This document shows, piece by piece, positions 4,501 through 10,889 of a DNA stretch of 64,000 nucleotides. Numbering within the stretch: the stretch's first letter is position 1; each line of letters starts with the position of its first letter. Location of the stretch: positions 620,001 to 684,000 of the forward strand of contig NZ_CYUJ01000002.1 in NCBI RefSeq assembly GCF_001299475.1, given 5' to 3'. Both the position numbers and the translations under genes were made by a program. The notes under the pieces were generated by a model. It was not told the DNA's origin. It did no database searches and worked only from the letters and a program-made list of their open reading frames with translations. Source of the stretch: Neofamilia massiliensis. Lineage in GTDB: Bacteria; Bacillota; Clostridia; Tissierellales; Peptoniphilaceae.

Positions 4501-5084
4501 ATAAAATTGCCATGAGAGACTTAGAAATTCGTGGGGCAGGAAATATTTTATCCTCTAAGCAACATGGCCACATAGATAATATTGGCTACGACCTTTACCT
4601 AAGTTTATTAGAAGACGCAATGAAAAAACTCAAAGGCGAAGAAGTAAAAGACATTAACGAAACTACAATTGATCTAAATATCGAAGCCTTTGTGCCAGAA
4701 TCTTATATAGGAGACCAAAGACAAAGACTTGAATTTTATAAAAAGATTTCTCTAATAGAAAATGACGAAGACTACTCAGACCTAATTGCAGAAGCCATAG
4801 ACAGATATGGCGATCTGCCAGAGGCAACATCAAATTTAATAGACATATCCCAAATTAAATTTATTGCCAACCAAAAGGGAGTAGAAATAATAAGCGGAGA
4901 CGCAAATAAAATTCGCATAAAATTTAAGGAAGACAAGGTCTTAGACCTAAAATCACTAAACAACCTAATAGCAATTTTTACAAACAAGGTTAGCTTTACT
5001 ACTAAGGGTCAAGCCTCTATTGACCTTAGTCCAGGCAAGTACCCATTAGAAGAATTAAAAGACCTTTTAGGAAATATTGTCTGA
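1593..5084 (+). CDS. mfd: Transcription-repair coupling factor Mfd
   Basis: DNA translocase that removes RNA polymerase stalled at lesions and recruits UvrA. 1163 residues, full family length. Domains in order: UvrB-like N-terminal module (about 1-350), CarD-like RNAP-interaction domain around 500-570 ('GDYVVHENNGVGIY'), RecG-like helicase core with Walker A 'ADVGYGKTE' near 652 and the DEEQ box 'VIDEEQRFG' near 756, motif VI 'QLRGRVGRS', then the TRCF C-terminal domain. No good Shine-Dalgarno is visible before ATG 1593. A hairpin separates it from pth. Confidence 0.97.
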   Translation: MKNFLIDPLLGLDSYKNLLADIKNEKQVIAVNGVLEEALGHFIYSVFSHGEKRKIFIISYSDLRAKRIYEDLKSLGLNNSYYFPKREDFFYRSIARSADTSNDQIKAMWALRHEDELIVATGYEGLLNKLMTPDKFSKLFFSINIDDRIDLGDLGKKLLLAGYENVPAVEGKGQFSIRGGIVDIFPPLAENPYRIELFDDEIDSIRDFDVLSQRSINTLEEIYICPAGENILDEADRHLAIKRLNKELKATKIKDAKVLANLEGKFSELGDRLENKLFIKNLDLVLPYIDQEKLGSILSYTDEDTLFFIDEPRRIDESALENYKDFKNRFSDLLLAGEVLPGHENSLYNYDEIIPRIEKNTKVTFSNILRDNKHFKPQSILNFHMKAITSYNGRMDIFKEEIDRYLYRGYKIAILAGDKKRLNRLDLSLTSLGVKASIAESLDESLHSSQILLSDLSVRHGFEYSDLKFSLMNQREIYGSSQKQKKAPRKKTKKEGAITDFADIEIGDYVVHENNGVGIYQGSYKLQVQGVTRDYILIQYKGADRLYIPTDQLGMIHKYIGTGEKKPKVNKLNSVEWTKTKMKAQKSIDDMADELIKLYAARQAKEGHQFSKDTLWQGEFEDAFPYEETQGQLQATAEIKEDMEKKAPMDRLLCADVGYGKTEVALRAAFKAVMDGKQVAILVPTTILAQQHYNTMVERFRDFPVTIGLLSRFRSKSQIDKDIKGLRNGSLDIVVGTHRLLSKDVVFKDLGLLVIDEEQRFGVRHKETLKMLKENVDTLTLTATPIPRTLQMSMIGIRNMSLIEEPPEERFPVQTYLAEYNPSMIREAILREIDREGQVYFLHNKVSDIDKVALELQALVPEARFLVAHGQMSERSLENAMMSFLERQADVLVCTTIIETGLDIPNVNTIIINDADRFGLSQLYQLRGRVGRSNKIAYAYITYPRDKQLSEVSEKRLTAIKEYTEFGSGYKIAMRDLEIRGAGNILSSKQHGHIDNIGYDLYLSLLEDAMKKLKGEEVKDINETTIDLNIEAFVPESYIGDQRQRLEFYKKISLIENDEDYSDLIAEAIDRYGDLPEATSNLIDISQIKFIANQKGVEIISGDANKIRIKFKEDKVLDLKSLNNLIAIFTNKVSFTTKGQASIDLSPGKYPLEELKDLLGNIV

Positions 5085-5098
5085 TTATTATGTGAAAA

Positions 5099-5128
5099 TT
5101 GCACAAATACAAAAAAACATGTTATAAT
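5099..5128 (+). promoter_or_regulatory. Sigma-A-type promoter for the foldase gene
   Basis: TTGCAC (5099-5104), 18-bp spacer, TATAAT (5123-5128). It sits 26 bp before the foldase ATG, with AAAGGAG in between. Confidence 0.75.
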
Positions 5129-5154
5129 AGTTAGGATTTAAAAAGGAGAGTTAA

Positions 5155-6222
5155 ATGAAAAGAAAAAGTTTATTATTGATTTTAGCCCTTATGCTAGTTT
5201 TAACAGCTTGTGGCAACAAGGGTGCAAAAGACGGAGTAGCAGCAACTGTAGATGGAGTAGAAATTCCACAAAAGACATTTGACCTATACTATGGTATAGA
5301 AAGACAAAGAATAGTTGCACAAATTGGTGAAGAAGGATTAAACCAACCAATGGACAAGCTTGAAAGATCTGCTGGAGAAATTCTAAGAGAAAACATTTTA
5401 AATTCTCTAATCTCTAACCAAGTAATATTAAATGCAGCCAAAGACGAAGACCTTGGCGACATTGATGCTACAGTAGAAGAACAAGTGAAAATGGAAAAGG
5501 AAATGTCTGGAGAAGATATTTTCAAAGAAAATCTTGTAGCAATAGGCCTTACAGAAGAAGAATACAAAAATGTATTAAAAGATAATGCAATTGTAAACGA
5601 GTTTAGAAATAAAAAAATGGAAGGCTATGAAGTAAGCCAAGAAGACAAAGAAAAATTCTTTGAAGAAAACAAAGAAGCATTTTATGAAAGATCAGCTAGA
5701 CATATTCTTGTTGAAACAGAAGACGAAGCCAACAAGGTTTTACAAAGACTAAAAGATGGCGAAGACTTTGCTGAACTTGCAAAAGAACTTTCTCAAGACC
5801 CAGGCTCAGCTGCCCAAGGTGGAGACCTAGGTTTCTTCCCACAAGGTAGAATGGTTGCTGAATTTAATGACTTTGTATTTGGAAATAATGTTGGAGACCT
5901 ATCTGATCCAATTAAGTCAGATTTTGGCTACCATATAATTGAAATTACTGGAGAAAAATCAACTCTTGAAGATTTCACTGAAGAAGTTGAACAAGGAGCT
6001 AAGAGTCAAAAATTCGTAGACGAAATGAAAGACTTAGAGAAAAAAGCTAAGATTAAGAAAATCTACGACGTTTCTAACGAACCAGAATCTATATTAGAAA
6101 AATTAGAAGTTGAAAAAGATATGGAAGAAAATATAGAAGGTAATGTAGAAGAAAATCTTGAAAACCAAGAAGAAAATTCAGAAGAAACTCCAGAAGCTGA
6201 AAAAGAAAATAAAGGAAATTAA
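5155..6222 (+). CDS. prsA: PrsA-type peptidyl-prolyl isomerase lipoprotein (foldase)
   Basis: Extracytoplasmic lipid-anchored foldase that helps secreted proteins fold. A signal peptide ends in lipobox LTAC with Cys19. A SurA-N-like helical region follows, then a parvulin domain at about 181-268 ('ARHILVET', '[14 protein letters not shown]', 'SDFGYHIIE'). The last ~45 residues are a very acidic Glu/Asn-rich tail, unlike the core family. Has its own promoter and terminator, so it is monocistronic. It sits at the Mfd-YabN junction, where clostridia often carry a SurA/PrsA gene. Confidence 0.9.
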
Positions 6223-6233
6223 TTTTATAAAGA

Positions 6234-6260
6234 CCACTGAGATGACCTCGGTGGTTTTTT
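6234..6260 (+). terminator. Rho-independent terminator after the foldase gene
   Basis: CCACTGAG (6234-6241) pairs with CTCGGTGG (6247-6254, one G-U), 5-nt loop, followed by TTTTTT. Confidence 0.9.
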
Positions 6261-6265
6261 GTTTG

Positions 6266-6574
6266 AAAAAAATTTGCAAACAAGAGGAAAAACAAGGGAA
6301 AGGATGATAAAATCAATAAATTTAAAGAGTTAGTGTAAAATATTTGTTGGTAAAAAAGAAAATAAAAACACAAAGAAAGAAGAATAATAAAACTAGACGA
6401 AAAAGTAGCAAGGTCAAAAAAATAATAATTATGGCGGAATAAACATAGAAATATTAAACAAAAGTTCAGGTAAATGGTTGAAACAGTGGTTAAACACAGA
6501 TTTTATAAAAAGTATATAAATTAAAGGAATTCCCTTACCAACAAAACTTGACACTATCTATTAACTCGATATTG
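6266..6574 (+). other. Gene-poor stretch at the left edge of the island
   Basis: AT-rich, no convincing gene. It holds the left copy of the island repeat (6305-6328). A short open stretch runs from 6409 to the stop at 6519; its peptide includes 'NYGGINIEILNK' and 'KWLKQWLNTDF'. It has no start codon with a ribosome binding site and may be a decayed gene end. Confidence 0.4.
6305..6328 (+). repeat. Left copy of island-flanking direct repeat
   Basis: Matches 9069-9092 at 23 of 24 bases (core TGATAAAATCAATAAA). The preceding ~20 bases (A-rich, AAGG-containing) are also similar. The copies bracket the regulator, secreted protein, lipoprotein and IS remnant. Confidence 0.7.
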
Positions 6575-6603
6575 TTGACTTTTGTAGAAAAAAATGGTAA
6601 ACT
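6575..6603 (+). promoter_or_regulatory. Promoter of the small XRE regulator
   Basis: TTGACT (6575-6580), 17-bp spacer, TAAACT (6598-6603), 27 bp before ATG 6631. A second TTGACA lies upstream at 6549-6554 without a matching -10. Confidence 0.6.
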
Positions 6604-6630
6604 AAACTTAACCAAAAAGGAAAAGGTAAG

Positions 6631-6864
6631 ATGATGAGAAATAGAATTGCAGAACACAGAAAACCGTTAGGTTTATCACAACATAGATTAGGTAAAAAAA
6701 TTGGAATATCAAGAATAAGCATAAATCAAATAGAAACGGGAAAGACTGTACCGAGTTTAAAAACGGCAAATGATATAGCAAATGCTTTAGGAGTTTGTAT
6801 GTATCAGATTTTCGATTTAGATGGAGAAGAGACATATAAATGTCATAGCAGTAATTGTTGCTAA
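6631..6864 (+). CDS. Small XRE-family helix-turn-helix regulator
   Basis: 77 residues; nearly all of it is one Cro/C1-type HTH domain ('LSQHRLGKKIGISRISINQ', 'ETGKTVPSLKTANDIANAL'). It resembles the short stand-alone XRE regulators found beside membrane or secreted-protein genes. The C-terminus 'CHSSNCC' is cysteine-rich, so a metal or redox input is possible (inference). Two tandem ATGs (6631, 6634) are possible starts, with AAGG-rich sequence upstream. It precedes a secreted protein and a lipoprotein on the same strand and may control them. Confidence 0.85.
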   Translation: MMRNRIAEHRKPLGLSQHRLGKKIGISRISINQIETGKTVPSLKTANDIANALGVCMYQIFDLDGEETYKCHSSNCC

Positions 6865-6897
6865 GAATTATATGACTTATTTTGTAAAAGTGAGGTG

Positions 6898-7010
6898 ATG
6901 TTAATAAACTATAAAAATCCTCAGAGGTATAAGAACGGCGAATGAGTTATTTTACTACAAATCTTTTTAATGATAGTAATAGTAAAATAGAAGGAGGAAG
7001 AAAATGTTAA
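6898..7010 (+). other. Two overlapping short ORFs between regulator and secreted protein
   Basis: A 15-codon ORF (6898-6945) follows a GAGGTG ribosome binding site. Its TGA overlaps the ATG (6942) of a 22-codon ORF that ends at 7010, inside the start of the next gene. The ATGA overlap could couple translation, making these leader peptides. They may equally be chance ORFs; no family is recognised. Confidence 0.25.
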
Positions 7011-7729
7011 GAAAAAGATTATTTGCTATAGGGATAGCTATTATAATGATGGCAGCATTGATGATTACACCAACCACCAGTGCATTTGCACAGGAAAATA
7101 AAAATATTGATTTGACTAATAGGGAAAATATTTATTACGATGAATCATTGGGAGCAAATGTTATAGCATTTACTCTAAATGAAGATGGTAGCGTTAATTA
7201 CCTTACTAAAACAGAAGCAGACAGTATTACGAAGAATGCTGGAAGTGAAGATATAAAACTTGAAAAAACAAATAGCGATAAGGTCATGCGAAGTGATTAT
7301 AGTAACTGGTATGTATTTAAACAAACGAGTGGACCTACTCGGTATACTGGTTCACTAAAGAAGGTTTCCGCTGATTTAGTTGCTCCTAGAGGCGGGGGAT
7401 CAATTACTAAAATTGTAGGATATGAATCAAAACATTTTTTCTCAGCATCAATTGGTACTCCAGATAAAAAATCTGCAATACAAGCAGGAGCTACTATAGG
7501 TTGGGAATCTTCTGCAAGCACATCTACATCGTATACTGTGAACTTAAGGGCAGGAGAAAAGGGATATATAGGATTTTACCCATACTATAATAAAGTGGTA
7601 GGAAATTTAGAACTTTATGGTAATTGGGGTGATGGCTTGATTAGTACTGAAAGAGGAGTAGCAGGTTATTCAGTAAAATTAACTAGTGATGGAGAAGCTG
7701 ATGGTATGTATAAATTCATATATAAATAA
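7004..7729 (+). CDS. Secreted protein of unknown function
   Basis: 241 residues. Clear Sec signal peptide: basic start, hydrophobic run (residues ~6-22), cleavage probably after 'SAFA' near residue 29. The mature part is rich in Ser, Thr, Gly and aromatics, with alternating patterns that suggest beta structure ('ASTSTSYTVNL', 'GYIGFYPYYNK', 'YGNWGDGLIS'). No catalytic motif or anchor is visible, so it is probably released. A strong GGAGG precedes ATG 7004. Codon use (CGG, CGA, GGG) differs from the neighbouring core genes, as expected of acquired DNA. I do not recognise the family; a secreted effector, inhibitor or bacteriocin-like role is speculation. Confidence 0.8.
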   Translation: MLRKRLFAIGIAIIMMAALMITPTTSAFAQENKNIDLTNRENIYYDESLGANVIAFTLNEDGSVNYLTKTEADSITKNAGSEDIKLEKTNSDKVMRSDYSNWYVFKQTSGPTRYTGSLKKVSADLVAPRGGGSITKIVGYESKHFFSASIGTPDKKSAIQAGATIGWESSASTSTSYTVNLRAGEKGYIGFYPYYNKVVGNLELYGNWGDGLISTERGVAGYSVKLTSDGEADGMYKFIYK

Positions 7730-7746
7730 TCGGAAGTAAAATCAAA

Positions 7747-8139
7747 ATGAAAAAAATATTTATTGGAATTCTTTTGATTAGCTCATTATTTTCTTTAATA
7801 GCTTGTCAAAAAAAGGAAGAAAAAAAAGAACAAAAGTTAGTATATTTAGGTATTGATGCTGAAATACTGTCAGTAAATTATGATGATAAGATACTGACAA
7901 TAGTTGAGACTGAAAATGATAGAAAAGTAATACAAACAGAAGTAAAACTAAACTGTAAAGATTTAGAAATTAACGACAAAATATTTAAAAGCAAGAATTC
8001 AGAAGAGATAGAATTTATAAAATTTAATGATTTAAAAGTAGCTGATATAATTAAAATTAATGTCAGTGAAAAGGAATTAAATAAAGAAGATGAAGAATTT
8101 ATAAATGTTGAGCAAATAGAGCTGATAGAAAAGAATTAG
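7747..8139 (+). CDS. Small lipoprotein of unknown function
   Basis: 130 residues. Lipoprotein signal peptide with lipobox LIAC and Cys20, then a Lys/Glu-rich spacer and a small domain of beta-strand-like segments ('AEILSVNYDDKILTI', 'VADIIKINVS') that recalls a compact OB or beta-barrel fold (weak). It starts 17 nt after the secreted protein, so the two are probably co-expressed. The ribosome binding site is weak (GGAAG). Its stop lies 8 bp from the terminal repeat of the IS remnant. Confidence 0.75.
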   Translation: MKKIFIGILLISSLFSLIACQKKEEKKEQKLVYLGIDAEILSVNYDDKILTIVETENDRKVIQTEVKLNCKDLEINDKIFKSKNSEEIEFIKFNDLKVADIIKINVSEKELNKEDEEFINVEQIELIEKN

Positions 8140-8190
8140 TTTAAAATGGCTCTTTGTCAAATGGTGTTGATGAAGAGAAAAATAACTATC

Positions 8191-8222
8191 AAATGGCTCA
8201 GACAGAAATGTCTGGGCCATTT
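8191..8222 (-). terminator. Hairpin at the 3' end of the transposase gene
   Basis: AAATGGCTCAGACA (8191-8204) pairs with TGTCTGGGCCATTT (8209-8222) around a GAAA loop, one T-G wobble. It overlaps the transposase stop codon and may insulate the IS from neighbouring transcription. Confidence 0.5.
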
Positions 8223-9004
8223 TCAATATACCGAAACTTTTCAAAGACCAAAATTATTCTTTTCTTGTAGTTATAGAAATTTCTATGACCAAAAGCATTT
8301 CTCTTAATAAGCTTAATCTTGTTGATTTTTCCTTCTAATGGGCCATTAGAAAGCTTGTATCTACAAGCATTTAAAATAAACTCCTCATACCTCCTACAAG
8401 TTTCAATTGCAACATTAACATAATGAGAAACCCTAGAATCAAGATTTCTATCAAACAAAGAAGAAAGCATATCAGTATTAGAAAGCCTAATAGCAGCTAA
8501 AATATCCTGAACACATCTGTAATACTTCTCTATAATATGATTAATATCTCTAATAAAAGAAACAATAGAAGCCTGACTCATAAAATTTTTAAAATAAGTA
8601 TACCTTCTAAAATAACTAGTATTTAACTCAAACTCATTTAATAAAAACAACTTCCAATATCTCTTTAAAACCTTGTATTCCTGAGAATCACGAGCAAAAC
8701 CATTCATAACAGAAATCCTAGTCCTATCCAAAGCCCGAGTAAGATTTTGAACAATATGAAACCTATCAAAAATAATCACGGCATTAGGAAAAACAGACTG
8801 AATAAGAGTAATATAAGGCTCATACATATCAATAACAACTCCCTTAACCCTTCTTCTAACCTCGATAGGATACCTTTGAAAATAAGAAATAAGCCTATGA
8901 ATTCTTCTATCAGGCAAAATATCAATAACCCTTCTAGAAACAGCATCCATAAAAATAAAACTCATATTAAAATCAACACTCTTAACCGACTTAAACTCAT
9001 CCAT
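8198..9004 (-). pseudogene. ISL3-family transposase, N-terminally truncated
   Basis: 268 residues from the first ATG; the frame is open up to about 9076, where it meets a stop. It represents the DDE_Tnp_ISL3 domain: candidate catalytic residues D2 ('MDEFKS'), D59 ('VVIDMYEP') and E224 ('GPLEGKINKIK') are all present, as are 'FDRFHIVQNL' and the C-terminal 'FGHRNFYNYKKRI'. Full ISL3 transposases are about 400 residues or more; the zinc-ribbon and HTH that bind the IS ends are missing. Hence inactive in transposition unless complemented. Confidence 0.8.
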
Positions 9005-9068
9005 ACAAATAAACTCAGGAAGAGAAGAAAAATTATTCTTAAAAAAAGAGAAAAAACCAAGGAAAAGC

Positions 9069-9092
9069 TGATAAAATCAATAAAATTAAAGA
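9069..9092 (+). repeat. Right copy of island-flanking direct repeat
   Basis: 23 of 24 bases match 6305-6328. It lies between the truncated IS and the yabN promoter. This may be the native intergenic sequence, duplicated when the island entered. Confidence 0.7.
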
Positions 9093-9099
9093 TTTTCCC

Positions 9100-9128
9100 T
9101 AGACAAATAAGAAAAAATTATGTAAAAT
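9100..9128 (+). promoter_or_regulatory. Promoter of the yabN operon
   Basis: TAGACA (9100-9105), 17-bp spacer, TAAAAT (9123-9128), 16 bp before ATG 9145; the ribosome binding site is GAGGTG. Confidence 0.6.
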
Positions 9129-9144
9129 TAAATTGAGGTGAAAA

Positions 9145-10575
9145 ATGGGACAGATACTAGTAATTGGTTTAGGTTCAACAGATATATCTGCCATATCCAA
9201 AGAGATAAGAGAAAAGTTACAAGGCGATAAGAAAATTTTTGTTAGAACTAAATTTCACCAGGCTCTTAAAGACTTAGAAAAAGATTTTGACCTAAACTAT
9301 CTGGACTTCTTTTACGAAGAAGAAGAGGATATAGAAGAAGTTGATAAAAAAATTGCCAGCTATTTAAAAGATCAGGCTGATCAAAGAGACATAATTTATT
9401 TAGTTCCAGGTTCACCCTTTGTATTAGAAAAGGCAGTGGACTTGATGCTTAAGGAAAATTTAGACCTAGGCTTTATTAACAACCAAGCTGCTTGCGACTT
9501 AGTCCTAGAAAAACTTAAACACATAACTAGTGGATACAAGACAATTTCTGCCAGGGACTATAGCATTTTTAAAGCAGATTATAGCTTGGATCTATTAATC
9601 CAAGAAATTGACGATGAGTATGTCTTAGATGAACTTATAATAAAGTTATTAGACTCTTATCCAGGGTCTACAAGATTTGCTTTAATTAAAGATGCTGGAC
9701 TTTCTAGCCAAGAAATTTATACAGATAGGCTGGAAAATTATTCTAGAAAAATTTATCCCAACCACCAGACATCTCTTCTCATTTATAAGCCAGAAGAAAA
9801 AGTTTATTCCTTTGCTGACTTGTTAGAGACAACAGATACCCTAAGAGGACCTGAAGGCTGTCCTTGGGACATTGAACAAGACCATAAAAGTCTGAGACAA
9901 GATCTTTTAGAAGAGGCCTATGAACTAGTTTTTGCTATTAATAATGATGATGTTGATAATATTTGCGAAGAGCTAGGCGATTTGCTTTTTCAAATTACTA
10001 TTCATTCGCAAATTGCCTATGAAAATGGTGATTTTTCCATATACGATGTCATTAATAGGGTCAATAATAAATTAATTTTCAGACATCCCCATGTTTTTGG
10101 TGATTTAACACTTGACAAATCGTCTAAAGTATTGCAAAATTGGGATAGTATTAAATATTCTTCAAGAGAAGTTAATAAATTTTGGCAAAGATTAGAAGGA
10201 TCTAAGGGAAATCCATCGACCCTATGGGCCTATGATATTATAGACAAGGTAACTAGGATAGGTTTTGATTGGACTAAGAGAGAAGAAATCTTAGCCAAGG
10301 TAAAAGAAGAATATGAAGAAGTTGTAGAAGCCCTCGACTCGCCTGTAGATTTAGAAGAAGAACTAGGTGATTTATTATTTACTGTAGTTAATCTCTGTCA
10401 CTACTTAGGCTATGAAGCTGAGCTTTTACTAACAGCTGCTTGTGAAAAATTCATAGGCAGGTTTAAGCTAATGGAAGATTTTGCTGAAGAGGAAGACCTA
10501 GATATAAAAGAAGTCGGTAGAGACAAGCTAGAAGACCTTTGGCAACTTTCTAAGCGCAAAGAGGAAGTTATATAA
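9145..10575 (+). CDS. yabN: YabN-type tetrapyrrole methylase-like/MazG pyrophosphohydrolase
   Basis: Two-part protein of 476 residues. Residues 1-215 form a tetrapyrrole-methylase-like domain ('ILVIGLGSTD', 'LVPGSPFVLEKAV'). Residues ~225-470 hold two MazG NTP-pyrophosphohydrolase modules, the first with 'GCPWDIEQDHKSL' and the metal-binding 'EEAYE...EELGDLLFQ', the second with 'EEYEEVVEA...EELGDLLF'. MazG hydrolyses NTPs to NMP and PPi and clears abnormal nucleotides; the methylase half has no assigned substrate. It heads the same yab block as in Bacillus (yabN-yabO-divIC-yabR-tilS-hpt-ftsH). Confidence 0.93.
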   Translation: MGQILVIGLGSTDISAISKEIREKLQGDKKIFVRTKFHQALKDLEKDFDLNYLDFFYEEEEDIEEVDKKIASYLKDQADQRDIIYLVPGSPFVLEKAVDLMLKENLDLGFINNQAACDLVLEKLKHITSGYKTISARDYSIFKADYSLDLLIQEIDDEYVLDELIIKLLDSYPGSTRFALIKDAGLSSQEIYTDRLENYSRKIYPNHQTSLLIYKPEEKVYSFADLLETTDTLRGPEGCPWDIEQDHKSLRQDLLEEAYELVFAINNDDVDNICEELGDLLFQITIHSQIAYENGDFSIYDVINRVNNKLIFRHPHVFGDLTLDKSSKVLQNWDSIKYSSREVNKFWQRLEGSKGNPSTLWAYDIIDKVTRIGFDWTKREEILAKVKEEYEEVVEALDSPVDLEEELGDLLFTVVNLCHYLGYEAELLLTAACEKFIGRFKLMEDFAEEEDLDIKEVGRDKLEDLWQLSKRKEEVI

Positions 10576-10610
10576 ATTTATATATAAACTTATAATTTTA
10601 GGAGGTTATT

Positions 10611-10889
10611 ATGAACAAACAAGAATTAGTAGCACAAATTGCTGAAAAAAGTCAAATGACTAAAAAAGACTCTGAAATGGCACTTAATGCCTTCATTGAA
10701 ACTGTCCAAGAAGCTCTTGCTGATGGTGACAAGGTTCAATTAGTAGGATTCGGAACTTTTGAAGTTAGACACAGAAAAGCTAGAGAAGGTAGAAACCCAA
10801 GAAACCCAGAAGAAAAGATTTCTATCCCAGCATCTAAGGCACCTGTTTTTAGAGCTGGAAAAGGCTTTAAAGAATTAGTTAACAAATAA
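10611..10889 (+). CDS. hup: DNA-binding protein HU
   Basis: Nucleoid protein that binds and bends DNA as a dimer. 92 residues with the HU signature 'GFGTFEVRHRKAREGRNPR' and arm residues 'KISIPASKAPVFRAGK'. AGGAGG ribosome binding site 35 nt after yabN. HU between yabN and the S4 protein is common in clostridia (in Bacillus hbs is elsewhere). Confidence 0.96.
   Translation: MNKQELVAQIAEKSQMTKKDSEMALNAFIETVQEALADGDKVQLVGFGTFEVRHRKAREGRNPRNPEEKISIPASKAPVFRAGKGFKELVNK

Follow-up and report, generated by a model that had tools for sequence, protein, structure and literature searches.

A probable relic of mobile-element cargo in Neofamilia massiliensis points to a conserved micropeptide gene ahead of exported proteins

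The mfd-foldase-yabN locus of Neofamilia massiliensis (Bacillota, Peptoniphilaceae) lies in a 64,000-nucleotide stretch of the genome (contig NZ_CYUJ01000002.1, positions 620,001 to 684,000; hereafter the window, in whose coordinates the features are given) and carries an island bounded by direct repeats between the foldase gene and yabN (Table 1). Within it lie the genes of a small Xre-type regulator, an exported protein and a lipoprotein, a micro-open reading frame (micro-ORF) just past the regulator, and an insertion sequence of the ISL3 family that has lost one end. A first-pass annotation of this DNA had listed the regulator, a secreted protein, the lipoprotein and the truncated ISL3 element, and this content is borne out by the open reading frames (ORFs), by Pfam, and by the lipobox rule, signal sequences and lipoboxes having been called by eye and by a hydropathy rule only. 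In our view, cargo of a mobile element was probably acquired here and survives as a relic that took shape in at least two steps, namely, an Xre-controlled operon with a peptide encoded ahead of an exported effector. The island itself is an ordinary relic, but it points to a conserved micropeptide gene.

Table 1. Features of the island between the foldase gene and yabN (window coordinates)
Feature	Position	Strand	Remarks
Left copy of duplicated native intergenic DNA	6278-6331		Core 6305-6328; 46/54 with 9042-9095; 31/54 with the G001 gap
AT-rich island DNA, frames interrupted by stops	6332-6593		6332-6630 has 25% GC; fetched loci match weakly, ≤39 bp
Xre-type regulator, 77 aa, Cys-rich tail (CHSSNCC)	6631-6864	+	HTH_3, E 1e-14 (Pfam)
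Conserved micro-ORF, MLINYKNPQRYKNGE	6898-6945	+	Core 6916-6941; AUG of relatives corresponds to AUA at 6904-6906
Exported protein, 241 aa, distant DUF6060-like	7004-7729	+	PF19535, E 0.0035, 17.3 bits, below the gathering cutoff of 26.5
Lipoprotein, 130 aa	7747-8139	+	Lipobox rule; relatives at 47% identity in G007 and G109 (another genus)
ISL3 remnant	8148-9042	-	Terminal inverted repeat kept at 8148, opposite end lost at 9042
ISL3 transposase remnant ORF	8198-9004	-	DDE_Tnp_ISL3, PF01610, E 8e-46; NF033550 positions 129-369 of 370
Right copy of duplicated native DNA	9042-9095		Abuts the ISL3 breakpoint directly; 32/54 with the G001 gap

The repeats had first been noticed as a 24-base pair (6305-6328 and 9069-9092) identical at 23/24 positions, which we confirm, and the pair proved to be longer, since the ungapped similarity covers both copies listed in Table 1 in full. 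The top ungapped score between 6223-6630 and 9043-9144 was 37, compared with a maximum of 26 across 300 shuffles. A 16-base core of the repeat occurs in two exact copies in the 1.92-Mb genome, both at the island, and at one further place with one mismatch; similarly, when the DNA of 6223-8150 was compared with its own genome, the right repeat was the sole other match (E 5e-10). On the yabN side, the native sequence runs on from the right copy without a break, while on the foldase side the left copy is part of continuous DNA downstream of that gene. Besides the window genome, a search of the genus yielded just two others, G001 and G002, both at species distance (yabN 75% and 59% identical; genomes 73% and 64% complete, respectively) and both with the foldase gene and yabN adjacent, a short gap between them and no island. 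The first-pass annotation had expected such an empty site to hold one copy of the repeat. The G001 gap does so: one stretch aligns in register with both repeats, at 26/41 columns with each over the shared part, with p values of ~1e-4 and 3e-4 by base composition that are somewhat optimistic, the register having been taken from the alignment itself. The G002 gap is short and aligns weakly, and shows the absence of the island only. Since the G001 stretch matches both repeats, the island has about 50 bp of native DNA in duplicate at its borders, as the claim that native intergenic DNA had been duplicated would have it.

This comparison leaves little room for the island being ancestral in the genus and lost from G001 and G002, which we regard as very improbable. 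Such a history gains some latitude from the sample, which comprises two congeners only, both with incomplete genomes, but it sits badly with the close spacing of the foldase gene and yabN in both of them, with the native DNA being duplicated in the window only, and with an Xre regulator that is much nearer to other genera than yabN is (see below). Alternatively, the repeats could be the attL and attR sites of a site-specific integrative element that lost its integrase. The perfect 16-base core shared by both copies would suit such sites, and one Xre homologue adjoins a serine recombinase gene (L109), and another lies ~7 kb from a tyrosine integrase (L106). However, attP normally shares just a core with attB, whereas the similarity seen here extends ungapped over 54 bp, and the native gap of G001 can be aligned with either copy over 41 columns, unlike core-limited repeats. 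The site moreover lies past a foldase gene, with no tRNA or other Rfam family at gathering threshold in 5000-10700, and no recombinase was found in the main island ORFs, so that we judge lost att sites to be an unlikely origin of the repeats.

The transposase remnant at the right end scores 210.5 bits against NF033550 (cutoff, 180) and thus belongs to the ISL3 family. An intact ISL3 of 1491 bp, flanked by the 8-bp target duplication AGAAAAAT, resides elsewhere in the genome, and the remnant is 97.4% identical to it, differing at 23/896 sites. As the first-pass annotation had observed, the truncation point coincides with the right repeat: the homology to two resident copies, the intact one and a second, ends exactly at 9042, where the repeat begins. 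This coincidence would follow from a deletion with one end within the transposase and the other in the right repeat, because the deletion itself then sets the start of the repeat; a repeat boundary at a truncated insertion sequence can therefore arise by later deletion and not by the entry event. Most of the differences from the intact copy (19/23) fall in 8492-8623, a block chosen after seeing the data, with 4/764 elsewhere (99.5% identity), which suggests that the remnant is a mosaic whose block derives from gene conversion with another ISL3 variant. The two repeats have diverged more, at 8/54 sites, both relative to the whole remnant (p 1.8e-4) and relative to its part outside the block (p 9e-8). 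If rates were similar, the arrival of ISL3 and the truncating deletion look younger than the duplication, a dating subject to gene conversion among ISL3 copies and to the possibility of a diverged donor of one repeat. Hence, of the proposal that native DNA was duplicated on entry, the duplication stands, while the divergences of 8/54 and 23/896 speak against the ISL3 truncation and the duplication having happened in one entry event. Two further broken ISL3 copies are found in the genome, at C3:408183-408984 (L042) and C3:944212-944466 (L043), one with stops and a frame change and the other a short fragment.

Matches to the Xre regulator occur in 123/130 genomes of the family, as expected for a helix-turn-helix (HTH) protein, and the close ones are scattered. 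Across the 11 top-ranking loci that were retrieved from other genera, the regulator is 68 to 88% identical, whereas full-length yabN outside the genus reaches at most 40% identity among 60 relatives (a genome set that differs from, and partly overlaps, that used for Xre). At the DNA level, the match to most of these 11 loci begins near 6594, and in six of them it extends 52 to 154 bp beyond the Xre gene (L093, L094, L095, L097, L099, and L100), with L098 and L102 showing a separate match past the gene; further out, the neighboring genes differ between loci. Upstream of the Xre gene, a 30-aa piece was considered as a remnant gene and set aside, as it had no Pfam match. In seven Xre contexts that were fetched, MobA_MobL, DUF3847, or a serine recombinase lies near the regulator four times (L104, L107, L109, and L110). 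Two matches are below cutoff, namely, that to DUF3847 in L107 and that of a VirD4-like fragment also present in L110. Two viral contigs carry the cassette amid phage structural genes, namely, L139, with tape-measure and major tail proteins, and L140, with a major head protein, where the gene nearest Xre matches a PHROG lacking an assigned function. Given that identity to other genera is far higher for the regulator than for yabN and that relatives of the regulator have mobile genes as neighbors, the cassette is most likely foreign and horizontally acquired, as judged from these sequence comparisons. Between 2387 and 9366, L139 also holds further exported-looking genes near its tape-measure gene (a 235-aa protein, a 203-aa lipoprotein-like protein, and a 163-aa protein with a zinc-protease-like motif recognized by eye), which are candidates for morons.

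The exported protein has few relatives. Proteins 27 to 28% identical to the exported protein over the alignment are encoded on Clostridioides plasmids (16 records), and the two that were searched pass the PF19535 cutoff; viral contigs yielded none, and PF09683 (lactococcin 972) did not match the window's cargo. A sequence search against solved structures returned two matches only (E 0.75 and 0.85), which were not used, and a single-sequence structure model had a mean pLDDT of 37.7, too low to use. On the Clostridioides plasmids L071 and L072 (3147-4149), a DUF6060 exported protein is followed by a small two-helix membrane protein, possibly an effector-immunity pair. The lipoprotein's relatives in G007 and G109 sit among other genes, with no DUF6060-like exported neighbor seen, and both genomes also hold a close Xre and the micropeptide, elsewhere than the lipoprotein relative; to call the lipoprotein an immunity protein is a guess. 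Plasmid searches with the lipoprotein and with the island DNA of 6280-8150 found nothing, and plasmids and phages contained Xre relatives of below 60% identity only.

The micro-ORF lies in the conserved DNA past the Xre gene. A degenerate pattern for NPQRYKNG(D/E) found 28 sites in 22/130 genomes of the family, compared with none for the reversed pattern, and also matched two viral contigs; a relaxed viral search added L154 as a true site, while L153 was discarded as a chance match, being part of a longer reading frame. As third-base variation is permitted by the design of the degenerate pattern, we judged coding on a second search alone, which was blind to codon position and used one exact 27-base sequence with up to three mismatches in 391 genomes of the class. 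This gave 12 sites in 8/391 genomes, other families included (reversed control, none), seven of these 12 sites being already in the family set. In this blind set, third codon positions account for 20/23 substitutions (p 1.6e-7, assuming independence), or 9/11 when each distinct change is counted once. In total, 36 distinct sites were collected, three viral contigs included, although the pairs L128/L140 and L145/L154 are probably the same sequences twice and all sites are related by descent, so that the p values overstate their independence. The core reads NPQRYKNGD, with the variants NPHRYRNGD, NPQRYRNGD, and NPQRYKNGE, and a tyrosine two residues ahead of it is kept at about 90% of the sites even though it lies outside the search pattern. 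An in-frame start close before the core together with a Shine-Dalgarno (SD)-like pentamer was present at 32/35 sites by a loose rule, and the micro-ORFs mostly span 10 to 23 codons.

Could the conserved stretch, instead of encoding a peptide, be a DNA site at which cassettes are exchanged? The flanks of the 27-base core are variable and the core conserved, as one would expect of such a site, and the arginine codon ends in G at 35/35 sites although AGA is commoner than AGG in ten genes of the window (125 versus 48), a hint that codon choice or the nucleotides themselves are constrained in addition to the peptide. An exchange site would not, however, account for the concentration of substitutions at third positions in the blind set, for the in-frame starts and SD-like sequences, or for the tyrosine conserved outside the pattern, and we therefore hold a pure DNA site to be rather improbable. 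The peptide, which falls below the 20-residue minimum of the family libraries used, appears not to have been reported: the strings NPQRYKNGD and NPQRYK had no match in open-access full text (preprints and most subscription papers are outside this scope), and we know of no description of a shared micropeptide as part of mobile-element cargo. The 63-bp micropeptide region had no match in plasmids and phages. The window's own copy may be decaying. Where L118 has a good SD sequence and an AUG (GGAGGTGGTGTTAATGAAC), the window equivalent GAGGTGATGTTAATAAAC has AUA for the usual AUG; its sole in-frame AUG, two codons upstream, was judged too close to the SD-like stretch, and its core ends in E instead of D. 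Taken together, the AUA start, the E residue, and the ISL3 truncation fit a decaying relic.

The surroundings of the sites suggest what the peptide may serve. By a home-made rule, an ORF of exported type begins 20 to 200 nt downstream at 31/36 sites, compared with 87/1218 control positions in the same loci, and with one site per probable duplicate pair the counts become 30/34 for the exported ORF and 21/34 for Xre upstream. Among 20 downstream proteins searched for domains, Lactococcin_972 (PF09683) was found in L114, L141, and L142, DUF6973 in L113, a C92 amidase in L127, M10/M12-type metalloproteases in L117 and L135, and a C70/C39-type cysteine protease in L151; two matched below cutoff only, and ten had no match. 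At 23/36 sites, the 500 bp upstream include an Xre-like translation, and at least two Xre types are represented. Of 20 Xre regulators of such cassettes that were inspected, most carry a Cys-rich tail at the C terminus, with a possible part in metal binding or redox sensing.

That one peptide core accompanies different regulators and unrelated cargo suggests a conserved target machinery, most simply the translating ribosome. We therefore tentatively propose, at somewhat less than even confidence, that the peptide acts in cis on conserved machinery, such as a leader peptide would by acting on the ribosome to set the expression of the cargo; the main alternatives are a peptide acting in trans and the DNA exchange site discussed above. 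The micropeptide could also be a signal sensed by the adjoining Xre regulator, as in the regulator-peptide signaling pairs ComRS and arbitrium. The close succession of regulator and short peptide gene at many sites is reminiscent of these pairs, but the window regulator consists of 77 aa with an HTH match only and lacks the peptide-binding repeat domain that marks RRNPP regulators, at least two Xre types share the same peptide core, and no Xre was detected at 13/36 sites, which makes a signaling pair a distinctly improbable explanation. As to the wider claim, the evidence leaves about even chances that mobile elements of the class share an undescribed and nearly invariant Y-x-NPQRYKNGD micropeptide through which unrelated exported effector genes are controlled or coupled in a common way, both in integrative elements and in structural-gene regions of phages.

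Several observations weigh against these proposals. With regard to the micropeptide as a shared part, the exported-ORF test failed at 5/36 sites (L111, L112, which lies beside masked sequence, L125, L128, and L140), and at the 13 sites mentioned above no Xre-like translation was seen within 500 bp, the sequence available for L122 being limited to 27 bp. By the loose rule, an SD sequence was missing at 3/35 sites, including the window's own (L121, L123, and L145), the micro-ORF of L119 reaches 38 aa, the Xre homologues in L105 and L107 run straight into another gene with no micropeptide between, and two lactococcin-972 loci of Staphylococcaceae have no micropeptide in ~500 bp upstream. The RNA downstream of 35 sites showed no unusual folding (mean z -0.32, three sites below -2; single-structure folding only), and without a special structure after the micro-ORF classical attenuation is disfavored. 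With regard to the island as an acquired relic, no insertion mechanism known to us typically gives a long imperfect duplication, the island-free sites come from other species and none from the same species, and a diverged donor could also explain the 8/54 differences between the repeats. In addition, a search that covered the four main ORFs of the island turned up no integrase, recombinase, or relaxase, and the exported protein is rare, occurring in 2/130 genomes of the family by sequence and in 9/249 genomes of the order by profile, the window genome counted.

Nevertheless, acquisition followed by decay remains our preferred account, and its course may be pictured as follows. In a first step, a cassette of Xre regulator, micropeptide, exported protein, and lipoprotein would have entered the foldase-yabN gap, so that native DNA of at least some 50 bp came to lie on each side; Campbell-type integration of a circle or homology-assisted illegitimate recombination are conceivable routes. 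In a second step, ISL3 would have inserted just past the lipoprotein gene, and a deletion from the transposase interior into the right repeat would have removed the rest of the island. We infer this order from the divergences given above. While intact, the small Xre regulator would presumably control a short operon in which a Y-x-NPQRYKNGD peptide is translated before the exported effector (a bacteriocin, protease, or similar protein in relatives), and a membrane protein or lipoprotein partner might confer immunity. If the peptide is real, searching for it could lead to exported effectors and bacteriocins that mobile elements carry, even where these have no recognizable domain, and it would represent a new principle of control by small peptides.

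How does the island compare with known systems? Its insertion sequence shares with the ISL3 family (PF01610, NF033550) the transposase domain and the terminal inverted repeat. The 8-bp target duplication is seen at the intact resident copy, whereas the window copy, one end of which is missing, has lost ~596 bp of the full 1491, and any part of it in moving the island would be conjectural. Integrative mobilizable and conjugative elements and prophage morons with bacteriocin or effector cargo offer a parallel, in that the relatives' module of Xre, micropeptide, and exported gene has MobA_MobL, DUF3847, a recombinase, or structural genes of phages in its vicinity; the window island differs from such integrative elements in having no transfer or integration gene found among its main ORFs. 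From lactococcin 972 systems it is set apart by its cargo, which is not lactococcin 972, and by the two Staphylococcaceae examples without a micropeptide, yet three micropeptide sites (L114, L141, and L142) precede PF09683 proteins, and after the Xre homologue of L107 come a membrane protein and an ABC gene, the latter matched best by TIGR03608, below cutoff. Finally, ribosome-acting leader peptides are known from the erm, cat, and tna leaders. The micropeptide core resembles no leader peptide known to us, and its sites, unlike those leaders, have no shared downstream RNA folding signal; what they have in common with them is a short ORF with its own ribosome site before the gene to be controlled and a conserved core of amino acids.

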